Shown here: piece by piece, positions 5,193 to 21,382 of the stretch
Layout of the letters: each line of letters begins with the position of its first letter
Numbering within the stretch: position 1 is the stretch's first letter
Origin: a virus
Direction: 5' to 3' (one strand)
IMG/VR virus record: IMGVR_UViG_3300008116_006531
Location: 1 to 21,382 of that record
Length of the DNA: 21,382 nucleotides
Notes under the pieces: model-generated
The model's database searches: none
What the model was told of the DNA's origin: nothing
The model's input: the letters and a program-made list of their open reading frames with translations, nothing else
Translations under genes and position numbers: made by a program

Positions 5193-6137
5193 ATGGCATT
5201 TCCTGACAAGATCGAGCTATTTGATTCCGGCACTGGCGGCCTGACGACCGAGGAAAACGGCGTCCAGAAGCGCGAAGTCACGCTGCGATGGCTGGTCCCA
5301 AACATGGCGGACTACACGTCCGCCGAGAACAAGGGGCAGGAGATTGCTCCGCTTATCTGGAGCGGCCACAGACGGAGCCGGCTAGAGGTCCGCAGTCTCG
5401 GAAATCTGTGGTACGAAGTAGGGGCGACATACGGCACGGTCCTCCGCGAGGAGGAGGAGGACCCGGAAAACCAAAACGACCCTGTCGCAAACACCATTAG
5501 TTTCGATACCAGCGGCGGCACCGAGCACGTCACGCAGACCATACAGTTCAACGGCGGCGGCTACACCCAGGTGGTCGGCTCGTGGACTGGCATAAAAGGT
5601 CAACTTGGGCACGCCGCCCCAGGACTGGGCGCGACGGTGCCGGACCTTGAAGGTGCGATCAACGTCGAAGGCGACCAAGTCAAGGGCGTCGACAAGGTCG
5701 TGCCGCTATTCAACTTCTCGGAGACATGGGTATTTCGATCCGAGTATCTCGTCACGTCCTACATCGCGACGCTCTACGAATTGACGGGCACCATCAACCA
5801 AAAGCCTTGGCGCGTGTTTCAAGGTGGAGAGGTCCTGTTTATGGGGGCCCGCGGCGAGATCACCCGCAACGCCGAGGCGGCTTCCGTGACGTTTTCGTTC
5901 CAGGCGCGGCCAAATGCGACCAACTTCAAGGTCGGCAATATCGACGTGGTAGGAAAGTTGGGCTGGGACCAAATGAGTGTCATGTACGAAACATCCGCTG
6001 GCCCGGCGACCATTATCCGCAAGCCGCAGTTTGTGTTTATCAACTCCGTGTACGACTCCAAGGACTTCGCCAGGCTGTCAATCGGCAACAGGTTCCCGGC
6101 CGTTTATCCGCCAGGGATACCATTCAGGAGACGGTGA
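5193..6137 (+). CDS. Putative tail protein downstream of the tape measure
   Basis: A 314-residue soluble, beta-rich protein beginning nine bases after the tape measure stop. Position corresponds to distal tail or baseplate hub proteins. Visible segments are MAFPDKIELFDSGTGG, then KREVTLRWLVPN, RLEVRSLGNLWYEVGATYG and a C-terminal half with YIATLYELTGTINQKPW and FMGARGEITRNAEAASVTFS. Aromatic residues regularly spaced in strands suggest a beta-sandwich. I see no catalytic motif and no membrane segment. The stop overlaps the next ATG by one base (TGATG at 6135-6139). No clear Shine-Dalgarno sequence precedes the ATG, so translation may depend on coupling with the tape measure. Role inferred from gene order only. 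Confidence 0.6.
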   Translation: MAFPDKIELFDSGTGGLTTEENGVQKREVTLRWLVPNMADYTSAENKGQEIAPLIWSGHRRSRLEVRSLGNLWYEVGATYGTVLREEEEDPENQNDPVANTISFDTSGGTEHVTQTIQFNGGGYTQVVGSWTGIKGQLGHAAPGLGATVPDLEGAINVEGDQVKGVDKVVPLFNFSETWVFRSEYLVTSYIATLYELTGTINQKPWRVFQGGEVLFMGARGEITRNAEAASVTFSFQARPNATNFKVGNIDVVGKLGWDQMSVMYETSAGPATIIRKPQFVFINSVYDSKDFARLSIGNRFPAVYPPGIPFRRR

Positions 6138-9325: not shown

Positions 9326-10383
9326 TCGAATCAGTGGCCGCAGACGTGGCCGCGGACGAAAGGCTCGCCGCCGAGGCGGAGATCGCCAGGCTGCGGGCCG
9401 AGGTCGCGAGCCTCCGCGGCCGCTACAAGACCGCCCTGCGGCAGATTGACCGCGAGCGGGAAAGGGCAGACGCACTTGTCGCACTCAAGGGCCTTTCGGC
9501 GACACGTCCACCGAAACGTGTCGCCAAGAGCGACAAGCACGCCGCGACCATGGTCGTCCTGCTGTCCGACATTCACTGCGAGGAAGTCGTCCGTCCCGAG
9601 ACGGTCAACGGGCTCAATGCCTTCGACCTAGAGGTCTGTGAGGCCAGGCTTGCCGAGCTGCAGGAACGGTTTTTCACGATGCTCGATCACGAGCGGCAGC
9701 TGACCCGTATCGACCGCGTCGTGCTCTGGCTCGGCGGCGACCTTATCAGCGGCATGATCCATCCAGAGCTGGCCGAGGAGAACAGCCTGCACCCGCTGGC
9801 CGCGATTCGATGGATCGGCGAGCGGCTTCGCGGGTTCCTGGACGCGGTGGCGGAAAACGCCAAGGAAGTCGTCGTGGCGACGAGCTGCGGCAATCACGGC
9901 CGCACCACGGAGAAGCTGCGGACGAACGAGGCTGACACGTCCTATGAGCATCACCTGTACCTGACGATGCGTGCGGCCGAGACGCGGCGGAACGTCTCGT
10001 GGCAGGTAGGCGAGGGGCATTTGAACTACCTCGACCTAGATGGATTCAAGATTCGCTTCTGTCATGGTCATGCCGTCCGCTACCAGGGCGGTATCGGCGG
10101 CATACACGTCCCGCTGAACAAAGCTATCGCCGCATGGGACGTGAGCGAGCGTGCTGACTTGACGTGCATTGGGCACTGGCACCAGTTTTCGTGGAGCCGC
10201 ATCGGACGGTACGTCACAAACGGCAGCGTCATTGGCCATTCAGCCTACGCTGTGCGGATCAAGGTTGCCGGTGCCGAGCCACCGTGCCAGGCGGCCATCG
10301 TCATCGACCATGGCCGCCGCGAGGTGACGCAGGCGTATCCGTTGTTCTGTGATCGCGACCTACGGCAACGGAGGCTGGATTGA
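9307..10383 (+). CDS. Calcineurin-like metallophosphoesterase
   Basis: A 358-residue protein with an N-terminal coiled coil (residues 12-62, AEIARLRAEVASLRGRYKTA) and a metallophosphoesterase domain from about 81. All signature blocks are visible: SDIHCE (Asp88, His90), GGDLISGM (Asp145), GNHGR (Asn196, His197), CHGHAV (His253, His255) and GHWHQ (His290, His292). The set is complete, so a two-metal phosphoesterase is expected, acting on a nucleic acid or nucleotide; the substrate cannot be read from sequence. ATG 9307 was chosen because the longer frame (from 9145) is a shadow of the preceding gene. It overlaps that gene by 19 bases and the following gene by four. A phage DNA-processing or host-nucleic-acid role is plausible. 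Confidence 0.85.
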   Translation: MAKTQLVESVAADVAADERLAAEAEIARLRAEVASLRGRYKTALRQIDRERERADALVALKGLSATRPPKRVAKSDKHAATMVVLLSDIHCEEVVRPETVNGLNAFDLEVCEARLAELQERFFTMLDHERQLTRIDRVVLWLGGDLISGMIHPELAEENSLHPLAAIRWIGERLRGFLDAVAENAKEVVVATSCGNHGRTTEKLRTNEADTSYEHHLYLTMRAAETRRNVSWQVGEGHLNYLDLDGFKIRFCHGHAVRYQGGIGGIHVPLNKAIAAWDVSERADLTCIGHWHQFSWSRIGRYVTNGSVIGHSAYAVRIKVAGAEPPCQAAIVIDHGRREVTQAYPLFCDRDLRQRRLD

Positions 10384-12912: not shown

Positions 12913-14029
12913 TCTGTACCGCGACCGTCGCCCCGCTCGTCTGCTCGCCGTGGCCCTGCTGCTGGGGATTGCGGCCGCGGCCGTCGTCCACTTCTGGCCG
13001 GCGAAGTCTGCCGGCAAAAACTTCGGCTATACGCCGGACCCGGTCGGTGAGCGGGCGTTTCTCGCGAGCCTCGACCAGCCGTTTTTCGCGCAGGCCGGCG
13101 CGGAGTGCATGCGCCAGGCCCGCGGCGTCGACACGTTCTTGTACCGGCCGATGTACCGGGCCCACCTGGCTCGCTACGGCAAGCCGTGGGTTGTGGGCCG
13201 GCAACTCCTCGGCGACTGCGTGGCCTGGGGAGCGGCGCATGCGGTCTTTTGCCAGGAAAGCGTGGCCTGGACGTTGGGGGCGGCGGCCGAGCCGCCGATG
13301 CTGCCGAGCACGGAGGCCATCTATGGCGGGGCCCGATGCCAGGCCCTCAATCGTTCGTTTGCCGGATGGTCCGATGGTGCCACCGGATTCGGCGCGGCCA
13401 AGTGGCTCAAGAATTGGGGGGTGGTCTATCGGCAACCGCTGCCCGATCTCGGGCTCGACCTGACGAAGTACGACCCCAACCTGGCGAAACAGTGGGGGGC
13501 GTACGGTGCTGGCGGCGAGAAGGGGCGGCCTGGCCTGGAGGCGCTCGCCAAGAAAAGCCCCTGCCGGCACGTCGTCGCCGTGCGGACCTGGGCCGAGCTG
13601 GCCGCGTCGCTAGAAGCCGGGTTCCCTGTGACGCTGGCGTCGTCGCAGGGATTCGATTCGCGGCTCGGGCCGTCGGGCATCATGGAAGCCTCGGGCACCT
13701 GGATGCACCAGATGGTGGCGATTGCGATTCGCTACCGGGCCAACGGATCGCCCGACGATTGCGTGCTGGTGCTTAATAGCTGGGGGCCGTCGTGGTGCGG
13801 GCCGCACGAAAACAGATGGCCCGACGATATGCCGGCCGGCTCGTTTTGGGCACGGCGTCGCGTCGTCGAGGGAATGCTGGGCGATGCCTGGGCGATCGGC
13901 GACGTGAAAACGGGTTTCCAGTGGCGCGACCTGCACAACGGCAACTGGCTGCAGCCGGTGCCGCCGGAAGCCAGGCCGGCCGCTCCTGACGCTCTTTTTG
14001 ACCCGGCCTCCCTGTCGCTGTCGCTGTGA
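12899..14029 (+). CDS. Membrane-anchored papain-like cysteine peptidase
   Basis: A 376-residue protein. Residues 13-32 form a membrane helix or uncleaved signal anchor (ARLLAVALLLGIAAAAVVHF), preceded by a positive N terminus (YRDRRPAR). The catalytic domain has every family C1-type landmark: Gln102 and Cys107 in RQLLGDCVAWGAA, His270 in GTWMHQMVAIAI, and Asn293 in VLVLNSWGPSWCG. The DCVAWG block corresponds to CGSCWA of papain, and NSWGPSWCG to NSWGxxWG. The orientation would place the enzyme outside the cytoplasmic membrane. The gene lies in the position where phages encode an endolysin, between membrane-protein genes, so a role in breaching a protein-rich envelope is attractive; maturation of virion proteins or proteolysis of host targets are alternatives. 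No peptidoglycan-binding domain is evident. Confidence 0.8.
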   Translation: MPAGDLYRDRRPARLLAVALLLGIAAAAVVHFWPAKSAGKNFGYTPDPVGERAFLASLDQPFFAQAGAECMRQARGVDTFLYRPMYRAHLARYGKPWVVGRQLLGDCVAWGAAHAVFCQESVAWTLGAAAEPPMLPSTEAIYGGARCQALNRSFAGWSDGATGFGAAKWLKNWGVVYRQPLPDLGLDLTKYDPNLAKQWGAYGAGGEKGRPGLEALAKKSPCRHVVAVRTWAELAASLEAGFPVTLASSQGFDSRLGPSGIMEASGTWMHQMVAIAIRYRANGSPDDCVLVLNSWGPSWCGPHENRWPDDMPAGSFWARRRVVEGMLGDAWAIGDVKTGFQWRDLHNGNWLQPVPPEARPAAPDALFDPASLSLSL

Positions 14030-16245: not shown

Positions 16246-16274
16246 GTTCTATCCTATCGGCAACTATCGGGCAA
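16246..16274 (-). promoter_or_regulatory. Candidate promoter P1 with TTGCCGAT operator word
   Basis: On the minus strand, TTGCCC (16269-16274), a 17-base spacer, and TAGAAC (16246-16251). The spacer includes GTTGCCGATAGG, and CCGATAG occurs twice. The bases from GTTGCCGAT to CTAGACAAC are nearly the same as in promoter P2, which supports a conserved regulated promoter. It would transcribe the 89-residue gene, its downstream neighbour and the prim-pol gene. The spacer word also occurs in the promoter of the small excisionase-like gene. Confidence 0.55.
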
Positions 16275-16304
16275 GAGCTGAAACGGTTTGGCGGTCGTGT
16301 TGGC

Positions 16305-16523
16305 CTAGTGGGCGTGCGATCCGCCGCGCGGGCGGCCGACGTTCGGCATGGTGGCTGCGTAGGATTCCACACTGCTACGCTTGGCAAACCATTGGTTGTC
16401 GATCTGCACGCCGGCGACGTGGCCGGCCTGCACGAGCTTGCGCATCCACAATCGGGACACGTTGGCTAACTTGGCCGCGGTGCCGATCGTGACGTATTGG
16501 TCGGGGTCGATTTTTGGTGCCAT
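16305..16523 (-). CDS. Excisionase-like DNA-binding protein (short)
   Basis: A 72-residue protein from ATG 16523; a start at 16532 or in the CCGAACCC repeats (16568, 16580) is possible. It contains the winged-helix excisionase/MerR-like pattern: YVTIGTAAKLANVSRLWMRK, then LVQAGHVAGVQIDNQWF and a C-terminal NVGRPRGG. Layout and wording match the C-terminal domain of the 194-residue protein at 20508: the shared positions are Y-[VI], AA-x-LA-[ND]-V, WMR, V-x-AG, G, W and GRPR. Such domains bind specific DNA as recombination directionality factors or regulators. The start codon is seven bases after a -10-like AACAAT, so the mRNA may be leaderless. A palindrome in that promoter suggests autoregulation. 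Confidence 0.7.
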   Translation of the reverse strand: MAPKIDPDQYVTIGTAAKLANVSRLWMRKLVQAGHVAGVQIDNQWFAKRSSVESYAATMPNVGRPRGGSHAH

Positions 16524-16530
16524 GTCGGCC

Positions 16531-16558
16531 ATTGTTGCCGATCGGCACCGCGGGTCAA
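16531..16558 (-). promoter_or_regulatory. Candidate promoter with 12-base palindrome, likely operator
   Basis: On the minus strand TTGACC (16553-16558), a 16-base spacer and AACAAT (16531-16536). The spacer contains most of the perfect palindrome TGCCGATCGGCA (16536-16547), which in its longer form reads GTTGCCGATCGGCA on the plus strand. TTGCCGAT is also in the spacers of P1 and P2. The position between -35 and -10 would let a bound protein block RNA polymerase. The probable transcription start is at or near ATG 16523. Confidence 0.5.
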
Positions 16559-16604
16559 GCGGTGGCATGGGTTCGGGCATGGGTTCGGCGGCGGTGGGTT
16601 GTCT

Positions 16605-16832
16605 CTACTCTGCCGCGGCGACGCCGCGGGCGATCTCGCACACTGCCGTGTGGTAGCTGGTCCACCCTGGAAGCGTGCGCCAGTGGGCCATGATCGCGGC
16701 GTGTTCGGCCGGCGTGATACCGTCGGGGTCAAGGCGTCGGCGGGGGCTGTCGCCTGGTTGGCGGAAGGCATGGCGGAAGTCGCCGCCTAGCAGCGTGTGG
16801 GCCAGGATGTAGCGGGCACGTTCGGGCGTCAT
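16605..16832 (-). CDS. Internal-start protein nested in the 158-residue ORF
   Basis: A 75-residue unit beginning at ATG 16832 directly after a full repeat leader (ACGAGGAGCCCGAACCC), which is exactly how independent genes of this operon begin. The sequence is MTPERARYILAHTLLGGDFR, HAFRQPGDSPRRRLDPDGIT, PAEHAAIMAHWRTLPGWTSY and HTAVCEIARGVAAAE. It is helical and has no identified domain, but the WRTLPGWTSY segment looks like a packed small fold. It lies in frame with the upstream unit with no stop between, so it may be made both separately and as the C-terminal half of a fusion. Confidence 0.55.
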   Translation of the reverse strand: MTPERARYILAHTLLGGDFRHAFRQPGDSPRRRLDPDGITPAEHAAIMAHWRTLPGWTSYHTAVCEIARGVAAAE

Positions 16833-17081
16833 GGGTTCGGGCTCCTCGTGGGTTTGGGTTGGGGTCGTGGGTTGTCTGTCGGTCATGCCCCTCCTCCGTC
16901 GCTCCAGCTCGGCGGCGGCGTAGCTGATTTCATCCTGGTAGCGGCCGGCGTTGGGGCAGTCCGGCCAGGCGGCCAGGCTTTCCCGGCAGTCGGCGATGAT
17001 GTAGAGCAATTCCGCCTCGGAAAGCCGGCGGCACCGGCGGGGGTAGGCGGCGTGGTCGATTTCGCGGGCGGCGGTGGTCAT
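16605..17081 (-). CDS. 158-residue two-part ORF: YIIADCRE-type protein fused to a second unit
   Basis: The ORF starts at ATG 17081 with leader CAGGAACCCGAACCC. Its first 65 residues (HAAYPRRCRRLSEAELLYII, ADCRESLAAWPDCPNAGRYQ, DEISYAAAELERRRR) match a short phage protein type I remember, with the order IxDCREAxAAxPxxxxAGxYxDEIxYxxxELxRR. Normally such proteins end there. Here the frame continues through the repeat leader, which is translated as a PTTPTQTHEEPEP linker, into the next unit. Either the stop codon was lost and two proteins are now fused, or most product is the internal-start form. No domain function is known to me. Confidence 0.55.
   Translation of the reverse strand: MTTAAREIDHAAYPRRCRRLSEAELLYIIADCRESLAAWPDCPNAGRYQDEISYAAAELERRRRGMTDRQPTTPTQTHEEPEPMTPERARYILAHTLLGGDFRHAFRQPGDSPRRRLDPDGITPAEHAAIMAHWRTLPGWTSYHTAVCEIARGVAAAE
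16833..16862 (-). repeat. Repeated start-codon leader, located inside an ORF
   Basis: Minus-strand AACCCACGAGGAGCCCGAACCC before ATG 16832. It is fully inside the longer frame. The plus strand carries GGG-TTT-GGG-TT-GGGG, a canonical quadruplex pattern when the next run is included. Confidence 0.7.
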
Positions 17082-17110
17082 GGGTTCGGGTTCCTGGTTG
17101 TGGGTTGGGT
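17082..17110 (-). repeat. Repeated start-codon leader (158-residue ORF)
   Basis: Minus-strand CAACCAGGAACCCGAACCC before ATG 17081, with AGGAA as ribosome site. On the plus strand GGG runs follow in series (GGGTTGGGTTGGGG). Confidence 0.7.
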
Positions 17111-17145
17111 TGGGGCTCGGGCGACGTGCCAGGCCTTCCCCGGTT

Positions 17146-17168
17146 CCGGCGGCCGCGGGCGCCGCCGG
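17146..17168 (-). other. Intergenic hairpin
   Basis: CCGGCGGC (17146-17153) pairs with GCCGCCGG (17161-17168), an eight-pair stem around a seven-base loop. It is between the stop of the 133-residue gene and the leader of the 158-residue ORF. No U-run follows, so it is not a normal intrinsic terminator. Confidence 0.5.
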
Positions 17169-17185
17169 TGGCGGGGCGGGCCGGG

Positions 17186-17587
17186 TTAGTAGGTGTCGGC
17201 GATGTCGTCAAACTCTGCCGCCAGCTCGCCGGCGTGCATCCGCGACCAGCGCGGCGCGTCGCCGATTCCGTGCCCGGCCTCGTTGGCTGCGGCGCGTACC
17301 AGCTCAAGCCAGGCCAGGCGGAGCCAGTGGGAGCGGGCGGGCGGCTCGCCGTGCAAGGCGGGGCCTGGGTTCGGGTCGACGAGGCGGAGCACCGCGGCGA
17401 TCATTTGGACCGCGGGCCACGGGTTTTCGTCGGTCGTGTGGGCGTGGCACGTCGCGCGGCAAGCCTTCCTATAGGCGTGCGTGGGCACGTTGTCGGGGTC
17501 GATCGTTTCCAGCTCTCGGATTGCGGCGAGCGACGAAAACAGATTCGCGATAGCCTGCCGCCGCTCGTGGTTGTATGTGGTCGTCAT
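17186..17587 (-). CDS. Hypothetical protein, 133 residues
   Basis: Starts at ATG 17587, positioned by the leader CAACCAGGAACCCGAACCC. The same frame runs upstream to 17854, but that part is the disrupted neighbouring gene and leader. Sequence features: RRQAIANLFSSLAAIRELET, then NVPTHAYRKACRATCHAHTT, WPAVQMIAAVLRLVDPNPGP, and WLRLAWLELVRAAANEAGHG, ending ELAAEFDDIADTY. It is a soluble, helical protein with two Cys near residue 50. I do not recognise it. The product is acidic at its end, unlike the Arg-rich neighbours. Confidence 0.6.
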   Translation of the reverse strand: MTTTYNHERRQAIANLFSSLAAIRELETIDPDNVPTHAYRKACRATCHAHTTDENPWPAVQMIAAVLRLVDPNPGPALHGEPPARSHWLRLAWLELVRAAANEAGHGIGDAPRWSRMHAGELAAEFDDIADTY

Positions 17588-17610
17588 GGGTTCGGGTTCC
17601 TGGTTGGCTA
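17588..17610 (-). repeat. Repeated start-codon leader (133-residue gene)
   Basis: Minus-strand AGCCAACCAGGAACCCGAACCC then ATG 17587. AGGAA stands ten bases from the start. Confidence 0.7.
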
Positions 17611-17619
17611 CGGGTTCGG

Positions 17620-17644
17620 GCCCGGCGGCGACGTGCCGCCGGGC
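17620..17644 (-). other. Intergenic hairpin with GACGT loop
   Basis: GCCCGGCGGC (17620-17629) and GCCGCCGGGC (17635-17644) form a perfect ten-pair stem around loop GACGT. The same loop occurs in the twelve-pair hairpin at 18865. It is located between the disrupted small gene and the leader of the 133-residue gene. Confidence 0.6.
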
Positions 17645-17654
17645 TGGTTCTCTG

Positions 17655-17827
17655 TCATGCGTCCGCGCGGACGAAGTACGGGTGCATCCCCTCGGCGGCG
17701 ATTTCGTCGCAAGCCTCCCAAGCGGCGAGCAGCGTGGCGAAGCGTTTGACGCAAGGGGCCTAGCGAGAAGGCATCGCATCTGCCAGCGGTCGACGATTCG
17801 CAGGACGTAATAGCCGGGGGCGTTCAT
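17655..17827 (-). pseudogene. Small gene with apparent single-base frameshift
   Basis: ATG 17827 has a full consensus leader and the first frame reads MNAPGYYVLRIVDRWQMRCL before becoming unlikely (Ser/Arg/Pro-rich). A second frame, shifted by -1, takes over with APCVKRFATLLAAWEACDEI then AAEGMHPYFVRADA and a TGA at 17655-17657. That second part looks like a normal protein C terminus, is preceded by an in-frame TAG, and has no start of its own. The total of 173 bases fits loss of one base from a gene of about 57 residues. The break is within about 17740-17775. A sequencing error or a programmed shift cannot be excluded, although I see no good slippery heptamer. The function of the presumed intact protein is unknown. 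Confidence 0.5.
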
Positions 17828-17851
17828 GGGTTCGGGCTCCTGGGTTGGGGT
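17828..17851 (-). repeat. Repeated start-codon leader, consensus copy
   Basis: Minus-strand ACCCCAACCCAGGAGCCCGAACCC immediately before ATG 17827; the clearest example of the family. A second GGGTTCGGGG copy lies just upstream (17855-17864), directly after a CAT triplet, as if a duplicate leader were present. Confidence 0.75.
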
Positions 17852-17872
17852 CATGGGTTCGGGGCGGTTTCA

Positions 17873-17921
17873 GCCGCTCCCGCGGGCGCCGGCCGGCCTG
17901 GCCGATGGCCGCGGGAGCGGC
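17873..17921 (-). other. Long intergenic hairpin
   Basis: GCCGCTCCCGCGG (17873-17885) pairs perfectly with CCGCGGGAGCGGC (17909-17921), thirteen base pairs, with a 23-base loop that is itself GC-rich. It begins two bases after the stop codon of the 185-residue gene. No U-run follows it. Confidence 0.6.
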
Positions 17922-17923
17922 CG

Positions 17924-18481
17924 TTAGGCGGCCGCGGGTTCGGGTGATGGGAGGTCGAGCCAGGCGGCGTGAGTGAATCCGGCACGAGCAAACCGGGCCA
18001 CGTCGGCGGGATCGGTGCGGTCGACGGCGGCCAGGCGGCCGGCGGCGTCGGCGGTCATGTAGCTGCACTCTGGCCGGCGGCCGGCCTGCCGATACCGATA
18101 CTCCGCGGCGGCCTCGGGCGTGAGGCCAGCGGGGACGCTCGACGACGTGCGGGCCCATACGATCCGATCCTCGGCGGCCGCTGCGGCCGCGGCGGCGATG
18201 GCCGCGCGGCGAGTCTGCCGGCGGACGGTGCCAGCTCGGCGGCCGGCGTGCGGGCGGGCGGCGTCATACTCGCCGGCCTCCTCGGCCTCCTGGCGGAGCT
18301 GGCGTGCGAGGGTCGAGTCTCGGCGGCCGCTGCGGGCCTCGGCGGCGCACACTACGCCCCAATATGAAACGTCGTCGGAATCGGCCAGGCGGACGGCGAC
18401 GCGGCGCGCGGGACAGTAGGTGCCGCAGAGCTCACAATGGCCGGGCTCGTCGACAATTCCCAAAACTTCGAAGCGGTGCAT
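17924..18481 (-). CDS. Zinc-finger-like protein, 185 residues
   Basis: ATG 18481 follows leader ACGAGGAGCCCGAACCC. The N-terminal 50 residues hold a likely treble-clef zinc site: FEVLGIVDEPGHCELCGTYC, then RVAVRLADSDDVSYWGVVCA AEA. This resembles phage and actinobacterial small proteins with C-x2-C, a beta hairpin and YGxxCAxxA. Residues 60-105 are an Ala/Arg-rich helix (AIAAAAAAAAEDRIVWART), and the C-terminal 70 residues are AAEYRYRQAGRRPECSYMTA followed by DVARFARAGFTHAAWLDL. A nucleic-acid binding role is suggested by the finger and the basic helix; not established. It is the first gene after promoter P2. Confidence 0.6.
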   Translation of the reverse strand: MHRFEVLGIVDEPGHCELCGTYCPARRVAVRLADSDDVSYWGVVCAAEARSGRRDSTLARQLRQEAEEAGEYDAARPHAGRRAGTVRRQTRRAAIAAAAAAAAEDRIVWARTSSSVPAGLTPEAAAEYRYRQAGRRPECSYMTADAAGRLAAVDRTDPADVARFARAGFTHAAWLDLPSPEPAAA

Positions 18482-18504
18482 GGGTTCGGGCTCCTCGTGG
18501 TTTG
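18482..18504 (-). repeat. Repeated start-codon leader (zinc-finger-like gene)
   Basis: Minus-strand CCAAACCACGAGGAGCCCGAACCC before ATG 18481; AGGAG at 18491-18495, nine bases from the ATG. Confidence 0.7.
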
Positions 18505-18518
18505 GCCGCTCGTGCGGC
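18505..18518 (-). promoter_or_regulatory. 5' UTR hairpin with ACGA loop (P2)
   Basis: GCCGC-ACGA-GCGGC on the minus strand, a five-pair stem with the same loop as the P1 hairpin and at a comparable distance from the promoter. Confidence 0.5.
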
Positions 18519-18528
18519 GTGTTGTCTA

Positions 18529-18578
18529 GTTATATCCGATCGGCAACAACAAAGCAAGTAGGCCAGGAAAAGTTTTTT
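18529..18578 (-). promoter_or_regulatory. Candidate promoter P2 with TTGCCGAT operator word
   Basis: On the minus strand TTGCTT (18552-18557), 17-base spacer, TATAAC (18529-18534, five of six to consensus). The spacer has GTTGCCGATCGG, continuing as GGATATAACTAGACAAC, the same order as in P1. An A/T tract (18567-18578, GAAAAGTTTTTT) lies about 45-56 bases before the expected start, where an UP element would be. It would direct the zinc-finger-like gene and those downstream. The 18535-18588 stretch contains no gene. Confidence 0.6.
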
Positions 18579-18588
18579 CGGGCGGCGG

Positions 18589-20507: not shown

Positions 20508-21092
20508 TCAAAAGGGGGCGGCCTCTTGGAAGGCGCGGAAGCGCGGCCGGCCCGCCGTCGGGTGGCGTGCGAAAAATTCCGCGTCGGCGCGGCACACTTG
20601 CCAGTTGCGGCCGGCCTTGCGGCCGCGGATGCGGCCGGCCTTGACCATTTGGCGCATCCATTGTTCCGTAACGTCGGCGAGCGCGGCCGCGGCCACGAGC
20701 CCGATATATTCCGGCTCGTCGGCCTGGCCGGTTGCCAGCTCGATTAGGCGGTCGATCGTTTCCGCCATCACATCATCGGCCGGCCGCATCGTGACTGCGT
20801 CGCCGGCCAGCTCGTCCAACAGCTCGTCGGCCGTCATTCCGCGATCGGCCGCGGTCACGTCGAGCCCGCGAATGTAGGTGGCATCCCCGCCGTTCAGTGC
20901 GGCACGGTTGCGGGCCTTCCATCGGCCGCCGTGATCGTCGCCGCATGAAGAACGGAAGGCATCGCGGCGAGCGTCGCCGATACGCTCCAACTCCGCAGCT
21001 TCCAGGCCGCGGGCCTCACGATATGCGGCCAGGACTACGGGCCAGTCAAGGCCCGCGGCCGCCGCTCGTGCTTTGTGTTCGTTCGTGTTCAT
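20508..21092 (-). CDS. Excisionase-like DNA-binding regulator (long)
   Basis: A 194-residue protein, first gene of the minus-strand cluster. The N-terminal 125 residues have no recognised domain: MNTNEHKARAAAAGLDWPVV, then AAELERIGDARRDAFRSSCG, and an acidic helix ADDVMAETIDRLIELA. Residues 129-184 hold an excisionase/MerR-type winged helix: YIGLVAAAALADVTEQWMRQ, MVKAGRIRGRKAGRNWQV, and GRPR at 181-184. The same layout is found in the 72-residue protein at 16305. ATG 21092 has no Shine-Dalgarno, and the predicted promoter would start transcription at this base, so translation is probably leaderless. It lacks the repeat leader of all the following genes, which fits a different control. Confidence 0.65.
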   Translation of the reverse strand: MNTNEHKARAAAAGLDWPVVLAAYREARGLEAAELERIGDARRDAFRSSCGDDHGGRWKARNRAALNGGDATYIRGLDVTAADRGMTADELLDELAGDAVTMRPADDVMAETIDRLIELATGQADEPEYIGLVAAAALADVTEQWMRQMVKAGRIRGRKAGRNWQVCRADAEFFARHPTAGRPRFRAFQEAAPF

Positions 21093-21098
21093 GCCGGA

Positions 21099-21151
21099 AG
21101 TATCCCATGGGAAAGTATCGACGTCAAGCGGGGTTCAAAATAATTTTTTTT
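21099..21151 (-). promoter_or_regulatory. Strong-looking leaderless promoter with palindromic operator
   Basis: On the minus strand: TTGACG (21122-21127, five of six), a 17-base spacer, GATACT (21099-21104), then six bases to ATG 21092, which is therefore the predicted transcription start. An A/T tract at 21134-21151 lies at about -42 to -59, the UP-element position. The spacer contains the palindrome TCCCATGGGA (21103-21112), flanked by direct repeats of AAGTATC on the plus strand (21098-21104 and 21113-21119). The arrangement suits repression by a DNA-binding protein. Confidence 0.6.
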
Positions 21152-21382
21152 CGCCTACCCTTCCGGCCGCGGCCGCCCGGCGGACAGTTGGTATGGTGAG
21201 AATCCGCCCGGCCATCGGCGGCCGTCCGGCCGCCCGATAGGGGGGCGCCGCGGGCCCGTGCTCGTGAGGCCGTCGGCCGGCCATCGGCACGAGCGGCCGC
21301 CGGGCCCGTCGGCCTGGCCGGCCAGCTCACCGGCGAGCGTCGCCGGCCGTCGGCCTGGCCGACGACATGGGCGGCACCGGCG
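21152..21382. other. GC-rich repetitive sequence without a convincing gene
   Basis: Between the promoter and the window edge I find no ORF with plausible start, codon use and protein. The sequence is dominated by words such as GGCC(A/G)TCGGC and CCGTCGGCCTGGCCG; the latter occurs at 21306-21320 and 21347-21361. Several inverted repeats are possible. It could be a regulatory or replication-related region, or the end of the phage; the continuation is outside this window. Confidence 0.5.

Follow-up and report, generated by a model that had tools for sequence, protein, structure and literature searches.

Small excisionase-type proteins repress early phage promoters in phage 186 (Apl) and phage P2 (Cox) (PMC7498355), and RdfS negatively regulates its own promoter (PMC11963761). 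In Cluster A mycobacteriophages, one L5-type repressor serves several sites of the genome, and sites and regulator diverge together (PMC6550527). Here, we compare with these systems a set of early promoters in the IMG/VR virus record IMGVR_UViG_3300008116_006531, analyzed over its whole length of 21,382 bases (hereafter, the window); the record may be a fragment, and the records of its relatives are also fragmentary. The promoters carry a short dyad between their -35 and -10 boxes, and one of them belongs to the gene of a 72-residue protein (the 72-aa protein) whose predicted fold is that of BldC, RdfS, and phage Xis (HTH_17 winged-helix proteins). The dyad, typically GCCGAYNGGM, is the conserved feature at orthologous early promoters and is centered five bases upstream of the -10 box. 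We consider it fairly probable that the 72-aa protein binds this dyad, blocks RNA polymerase, and represses itself together with other early promoters.

A preliminary description of the window had placed GCCGAT in the spacers of three promoters, P1, P2, and that of the 72-aa gene, and all three were located as claimed, on the minus strand (Table 1). P1 and P2, between which it saw a word in common, belong to a 55-nucleotide (nt) repeat, 84% identical, which contains GTTGCCGATnGGATAnAACTAGACAAC and a leader hairpin. It had correctly counted these three sites but overlooked a fourth: a second, paralogous regulator of 194 residues (the 194-aa protein) is encoded behind a promoter with the perfect dyad TCCCATGGGA. 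The palindrome that it described at the regulator gene is indeed perfect (TGCCGATCGGCA), but the strand of the word needs correction: read as transcribed, the 72-aa promoter has GTGCCGATCGG, and TTGCCGATCGG lies on the opposite strand. A longer start of the 72-aa gene (16580), which would put its promoter within coding sequence, was rejected, as relatives align from MAPKIDP and the promoter lies just upstream.

Under one fixed promoter rule, the window has seven promoter-like sites, three of them with GCCGAT in the spacer. When the window was randomized 200 times by a first-order Markov model, such promoters numbered 0.04 on average and 1 at most, and none of the 200 randomized windows reached three; chance as the origin of the promoter-linked word is thus rejected. 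The bare 6-mer is unspecific by itself (52 copies in the window vs. ~24 expected), and the two copies of the word already noticed inside plus-strand genes were confirmed at 6078-6088 and 13425-13435. Because GCCGAT is common throughout the window, its count carries no information, and the word is informative only when in register with the -10 box. Of the earlier concern that the word might be common and not linked to promoters, the first part applies to the 6-mer, yet its linkage to promoters is above chance.

Searches of viral contigs gave 29 matches with the 72-aa protein, 43 with its alignment, and 14 with the 194-aa protein, which overlap and together represent about 50 distinct contigs of uncultured phages. 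Upstream of the 72-aa gene, all of the first 29 relatives have a TTGACA-like box followed after 16-17 bases by a -10 box, and 28 of the 29 have GCCGAYCGG or a variant in the spacer; the wider, more distant set includes more variants. In about 45 contigs, the 72-aa promoter and the P1 orthologue both keep the dyad. The P1 orthologue lies 262-307 nt downstream of the 72-aa ATG in the 19 contigs for which this distance was listed. P2-type and 194-aa promoters of relatives likewise carry the dyad. Each genome has three to six dyad-type sites, nearly all in promoters. An additional promoter-like dyad site far outside the early cluster was seen in two records (G034:10728, plus strand; G035:38086, minus strand). 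In all 43 cases, 6-7 nt separate the -10 box from the ATG of the 72-aa gene (7 nt in the window), and the 72-aa mRNA is therefore predicted to be leaderless. The exact 24-nt pattern of P1 and P2 was found in no other viral contig. We found no relatives of the 72-aa protein in species genomes and no match to the 194-aa protein in cultured phages, where tape-measure matches were generic.

The dyad is also evident as symmetry. When 64 distinct promoters, each anchored by its gene, were examined, the best spacer dyad had on average 3.73 of 5 pairs, compared to 2.78 in shuffled spacers (maximum 3.0 in 500), and its offset is nearly always the same. The outer pair is found as G-C, C-G, A-T, and T-A. 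Self-inverted identity is 7.35/10 at the 72-aa promoter (vs. 3.75) and 6.0/10 at P1 (vs. 2.7), while direct shifts of 10-11 base pairs (bp) reach at most 4.25/10, slightly over the null; direct-repeat (Xis-like) sites were rejected, as this weak signal is all they have against a dominant inverted symmetry. When columns were shuffled in a strictly fixed register, covariation of the dyad pairs gave only a mildly positive result, so the case for symmetry rests on the comparison of dyads with shuffled spacers and not on pair covariation. In many promoters, the dyad extends to ~20 bp as TTGTnGCCGATNGGAnACAA, and one site in contig L010 is a perfect 22-bp palindrome, GTTGTATCCGATCGGATACAAC. In promoters of the P1, P2, and 194-aa types, complementarity returns at pairs 7, 9, and 10, so that part of the -10 box is mirrored in the left arm of the spacer.

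The 72-aa protein was modeled by AlphaFold2 as a winged helix-turn-helix (mean predicted local distance difference test score 82.8), with helices at residues 13-20, 24-33, and 49-58 and a wing at 38-48; the last helix is the one at 49-58, and no long C-terminal helix follows it. The best structural matches of the model are BldC (6ama, Z 6.6) and Pukovnik Xis (4j2n, Z 6.5), then MerR proteins, and 4j2n is also the top Foldseek match (probability 1.00, but E 0.028). For the model, these scores show a shared arrangement, not close kinship, and the predicted fold is a winged helix of Xis/BldC/MerR type. By sequence, the protein matches HTH_17 (Pfam PF12728: 20.5 bits, E 0.00057), under the gathering cut-off of 27; a sequence search against solved structures found none, and HTH_3 had no match in the protein or anywhere in the window. 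The initial label of the gene as excisionase-like agrees with the Xis/BldC-type fold of the model, but not with the sub-threshold Pfam score or with sites that are not direct repeats. The 194-aa protein combines a helical N-terminal part with a C-terminal winged-helix domain paralogous to the 72-aa protein; this domain shares 33-43% identity with the product of the short gene in relatives.

Covariation between protein and DNA is the strongest link, at the level of sequence, of the word to the 72-aa protein. Residue 28, within the modeled recognition helix (residues 24-33), is arginine (R28) or leucine (L28) across contigs, and we propose R28 as the specificity residue. Overlapping contig pieces were removed for the P1 covariation, column association, and symmetry tests, and retained in the count of 2/9 pairs over all promoters. 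Base 9 of the P1 dyad is G in 34 of 37 R28 contigs vs. none of eight L28 contigs (Fisher 7.7e-7, uncorrected for kinship). A C-G pair at positions 2/9 is present at 86 of the 94 early promoters detected with R28 and at 0 of the 19 detected with L28 (duplicate loci included). The R28/L28 label needs two changes on the tree, and the switch from R28 to L28 probably arose through two independent changes. The near-identical sisters G033 (R28, GCCGATTGGT) and G036 (L28, GCCGATTGCT) have 72-aa proteins that differ at few residues, R28L among them, and the sole difference between their P1 words is G to C at base 9. The larger L28 clade also has an altered word at the 194-aa promoter (GTCGATCGAC, GACGATCGAC), where both dyad halves change in L28 phages. 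In the R28 and L28 groups alike, the site of the 194-aa paralogue that corresponds to residue 28 is R; because its promoter changes in the L28 clade though it keeps R itself, the 72-aa protein appears to be the reader. An arginine-guanine contact, lost with leucine, would be the obvious chemistry.

Altogether, conservation, family specificity, and covariation support the small regulatory circuit suggested earlier, which withstood each of the comparative tests applied here. The 72-aa protein would occupy the dyad in the spacer and should block initiation, because the dyad overlaps the region needed by RNA polymerase. At its own promoter, it would hold its own level; at P1, P2, and the 194-aa promoter, it would hold down other early units; the four promoters divide the early genes of the leftward cluster (antirestriction ArdC, Prim-Pol, small genes) among four units. 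The circuit could act as a homeostatic, Cro-like shut-off of early genes in lytic growth or in the maintenance of lysogeny. In this scheme, we infer the physical binding, the dimerization, repression over activation, and the circuit role. A bolder picture, which we offer tentatively and would not bet on, is of a 72-residue master early repressor of Xis/BldC fold in at least partly temperate phages, sitting as a dimer on dispersed dyads and not head-to-tail, with the switches from R28 to L28 and from G to C/A/T at base 9 having probably occurred twice.

Several points speak against binding of the dyad by the 72-aa protein. For proteins of Xis/BldC/RdfS/Apl type, the known sites are direct repeats, occupied head-to-tail, and not dyads (PMC11963761, PMC7498355). 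Only two events underlie the covariation, with a single origin less probable, and a residue in the poorly modeled C-terminal tail associates equally strongly. There are also exceptions on both sides: R28 contigs L023, L024, and L073 do not have G at base 9, the 72-aa promoter of G036 retains G despite L28, and the word at the 72-aa promoter of G032/G033 is poor (AACAAATGGC). Finally, the P1 word of L28 phages changes in its right half only, though a symmetric dimer should shift both halves.

Another candidate reader is a divergent Cro/CI-type HTH_3 protein, encoded ~2 kb upstream of the 194-aa gene in most of the complete relatives, for which the dyads would be the operators of a classical lysogeny repressor. 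Such proteins normally bind dyads, and an HTH_3 match was found in 9 of 13 records, with an integrase-like open reading frame (ORF) adjoining. We nevertheless regard this as unlikely, because two relatives of ~41 kb each (G006, G031) keep the words without an HTH_3 match; in addition, the HTH_3 gene promoter has no well-formed word in the three relatives inspected, and the covariation with the 72-aa protein is not predicted. It is likewise unlikely that the dyad is bound mainly by the 194-aa paralogue, by itself or in a heteromer with the 72-aa protein, and that the 72-aa protein is a competitor or antagonist. The paralogue has the same domain, the word in its own promoter, and long N-terminal helices that could dimerize, but operators, including its own, change where its recognition helix is constant and the 72-aa protein has L28, and its best column association is weaker (p = 0.0007 vs. 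7.7e-7). The 194-aa paralogue may share the dyad sites.

The 72-aa protein could also bind the dyad and activate from the spacer in the fashion of MerR, which we think improbable. The modeled fold is MerR-like, and MerR operators are established as dyads in the promoter spacer (PMC9909328, PMC3431237). However, the spacers of the dyad promoters are 15-18 bp, mostly 16-17, compared to the unusually long MerR spacer, the model has no long dimerization helix, and many of the -35 and -10 boxes are good as they stand.

A dyad-promoter profile, trained without the window, was used to scan genomes. The best-scoring sites of the window are P2 and the 72-aa promoter, and in most of the complete relatives, early promoters come first or nearly so; G032, G033, and G036, with a drifted word, have weaker or fewer sites. 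In 2.9 million viral contigs, an 18-nt promoter word is present only in this phage family and at six sites without relatives of the early genes of the window. A related pattern yielded five exact matches in 84,980 species genomes (Planctomycetaceae, Chitinophagaceae, Bacteroidales, Eremiobacterota, Bacillota), none with relatives of the window early genes nearby, and these are most simply due to chance. From these counts, the word is not a general host sigma element, because a host reading it by sigma should have given many matches; the true host may be absent from the species collection. An extended core-promoter element read by a host or phage sigma factor would fit the nearly fixed distance from word to -10 box and a -35 distance that varies by 1-2 bp, but is very improbable, given that the five matches fall in five different groups, that other promoter-like sites of the same phages do not have the word, that sigma reads asymmetric sequence, unlike this dyad, whose outer pairs are compensated, and that the word shifts jointly at several promoters of one phage clade, as expected of a phage-encoded reader.

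The window has structural genes on the plus strand, including a tape measure gene with a PhageMin_Tail match, and a leftward early-type cluster on the minus strand, with ArdC antirestriction, Prim-Pol, two HTH_17-like proteins, and many small ORFs. The promoters, dyads, and main genes of the cluster are listed in Table 1.

Table 1. Positions of the dyad promoters and associated features in the window.
Feature	Position	Strand	Remark
72-aa gene promoter, TTGACC-N16-AACAAT	16531..16558	minus	conserved in ~40 contigs
Dyad GCCGATCGGC inside TGCCGATCGGCA (16536-16547)	16537..16546	minus	proposed autoregulatory operator
72-aa winged-helix (HTH_17-like) protein gene	16305..16523	minus	proposed dyad reader
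Promoter P1, TTGCCC-N17-TAGAAC	16246..16274	minus	orthologue in 45/46 contigs
Dyad GCCGATAGGA in P1	16252..16261	minus	
Leader hairpin GGCCGCacgaGCGGCC behind P1	16221..16236	minus	near-identical copy behind P2 at 18504-18519
89-aa protein gene, function unassigned, first behind P1	15932..16201	minus	
Prim-Pol gene (bifunctional primase/polymerase N-terminal), downstream of P1	15191..15676	minus	PF09250, 1.9e-22
Promoter P2, TTGCTT-N17-TATAAC	18529..18557	minus	
Dyad GCCGATCGGA in P2	18535..18544	minus	
185-aa gene behind P2	17924..18481	minus	cysteine cluster CELCGTYC; no Pfam match
194-aa paralogue promoter, TTGACG-N17-GATACT	21099..21127	minus	word also at orthologous promoter in relatives
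Perfect dyad TCCCATGGGA in 194-aa gene promoter	21103..21112	minus	
194-aa gene	20508..21092	minus	first gene of cluster in this record

An A-tract/T-tract of the type GAAAAAnTTTTTC, resembling an UP element, lies just upstream of the -35 box at P2 (~18560-18580) and at the 194-aa promoter (21130-21155); it is found in the same place in many relatives (L052, L054, L046, and others) and is absent from the 72-aa promoter. Between 15896 and 20446 of the window, most genes of the minus-strand cluster are preceded by a near-identical start context, AGGAGCCCGAACCCATG, and the stretches between genes repeatedly contain GACAACC with a G+C-rich hairpin behind it.

The window stops short of the region in which relatives have integrase-like ORFs (PF00589, mostly under the cut-off) and the divergent HTH_3 gene; from these genes, at least part of the phage family looks temperate. 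In G006, at ~28.6-30.1 kb (L095:8636-9979, 9839-10081), a tyrosine-recombinase-like ORF stands with a divergent third HTH_17-like ORF (STREAAKILGIS), without an HTH_3 match there. The 77-kb record G037 (IMGVR 3300042453_002958) appears by eye to be two joined phage-like stretches, with an integrase match at 16.3 kb; no host flank was recognized by eye, and the record does not have the form of a prophage set between clear stretches of host DNA. A second repeat, GAGTATTTCGATAG, often at a spacing of 22 or 33 bp, clusters upstream of the 194-aa gene in relatives (G005:224-289, G006:27673-27750, G027:19994-20038, G030:7624-7704, G031:21784-21847, G032:20051-20139, G033:23872-23958) and forms a palindrome in G032, G033, and G036. 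Integrase arm sites, an origin, or the operators of another regulator are candidates for it.

The analysis proposes, from sequence alone, a concrete regulatory circuit that can be tested, in a family of phages for which metagenomes are the only source. It also points to a natural switch of specificity, from residue to base, within the Xis/BldC fold, whose other members are known to bind head-to-tail and with weak specificity. Binding of dyads by the 72-aa protein, if real, would be an unusual mode for this fold and would make the protein a minimal phage repressor.

Our searches of the literature on inverted-repeat early operators and stoperators found little of relevance. The phiC31-type repressor has dispersed, conserved inverted-repeat operators at early promoters, as here, and is a larger protein than the 72-aa protein. 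Lambda-type Cro and CI differ in that the 72-aa protein has an HTH_17-like, not an HTH_3, domain. The MerR family shares the fold and the dyad between -35 and -10, but its spacer is ~19-20 bp, compared to an ordinary length here, and the 72-aa protein does not have a C-terminal coiled coil or sensor domain. BldC, RdfS, and Xis assemble head-to-tail, often with weak sequence specificity, whereas the dyad here is conserved. For Apl, the sites are direct repeats at a distance of one helix turn, in a single switch region and at att, whereas here single dyads lie in several dispersed promoter spacers. The L5 stoperators are asymmetric 13-bp sites, mostly outside promoters and up to 30 per genome, unlike the few symmetric sites of these phages. 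Thus, Apl and RdfS, with direct repeats or without a clear motif (PMC7498355, PMC11963761), are closest in protein type and in promoter repression, and the L5-type repressor is closest in layout; by analogy, the proposed system would resemble a phage repressor that acts at dispersed operators, except that its protein has the predicted Xis/BldC fold.

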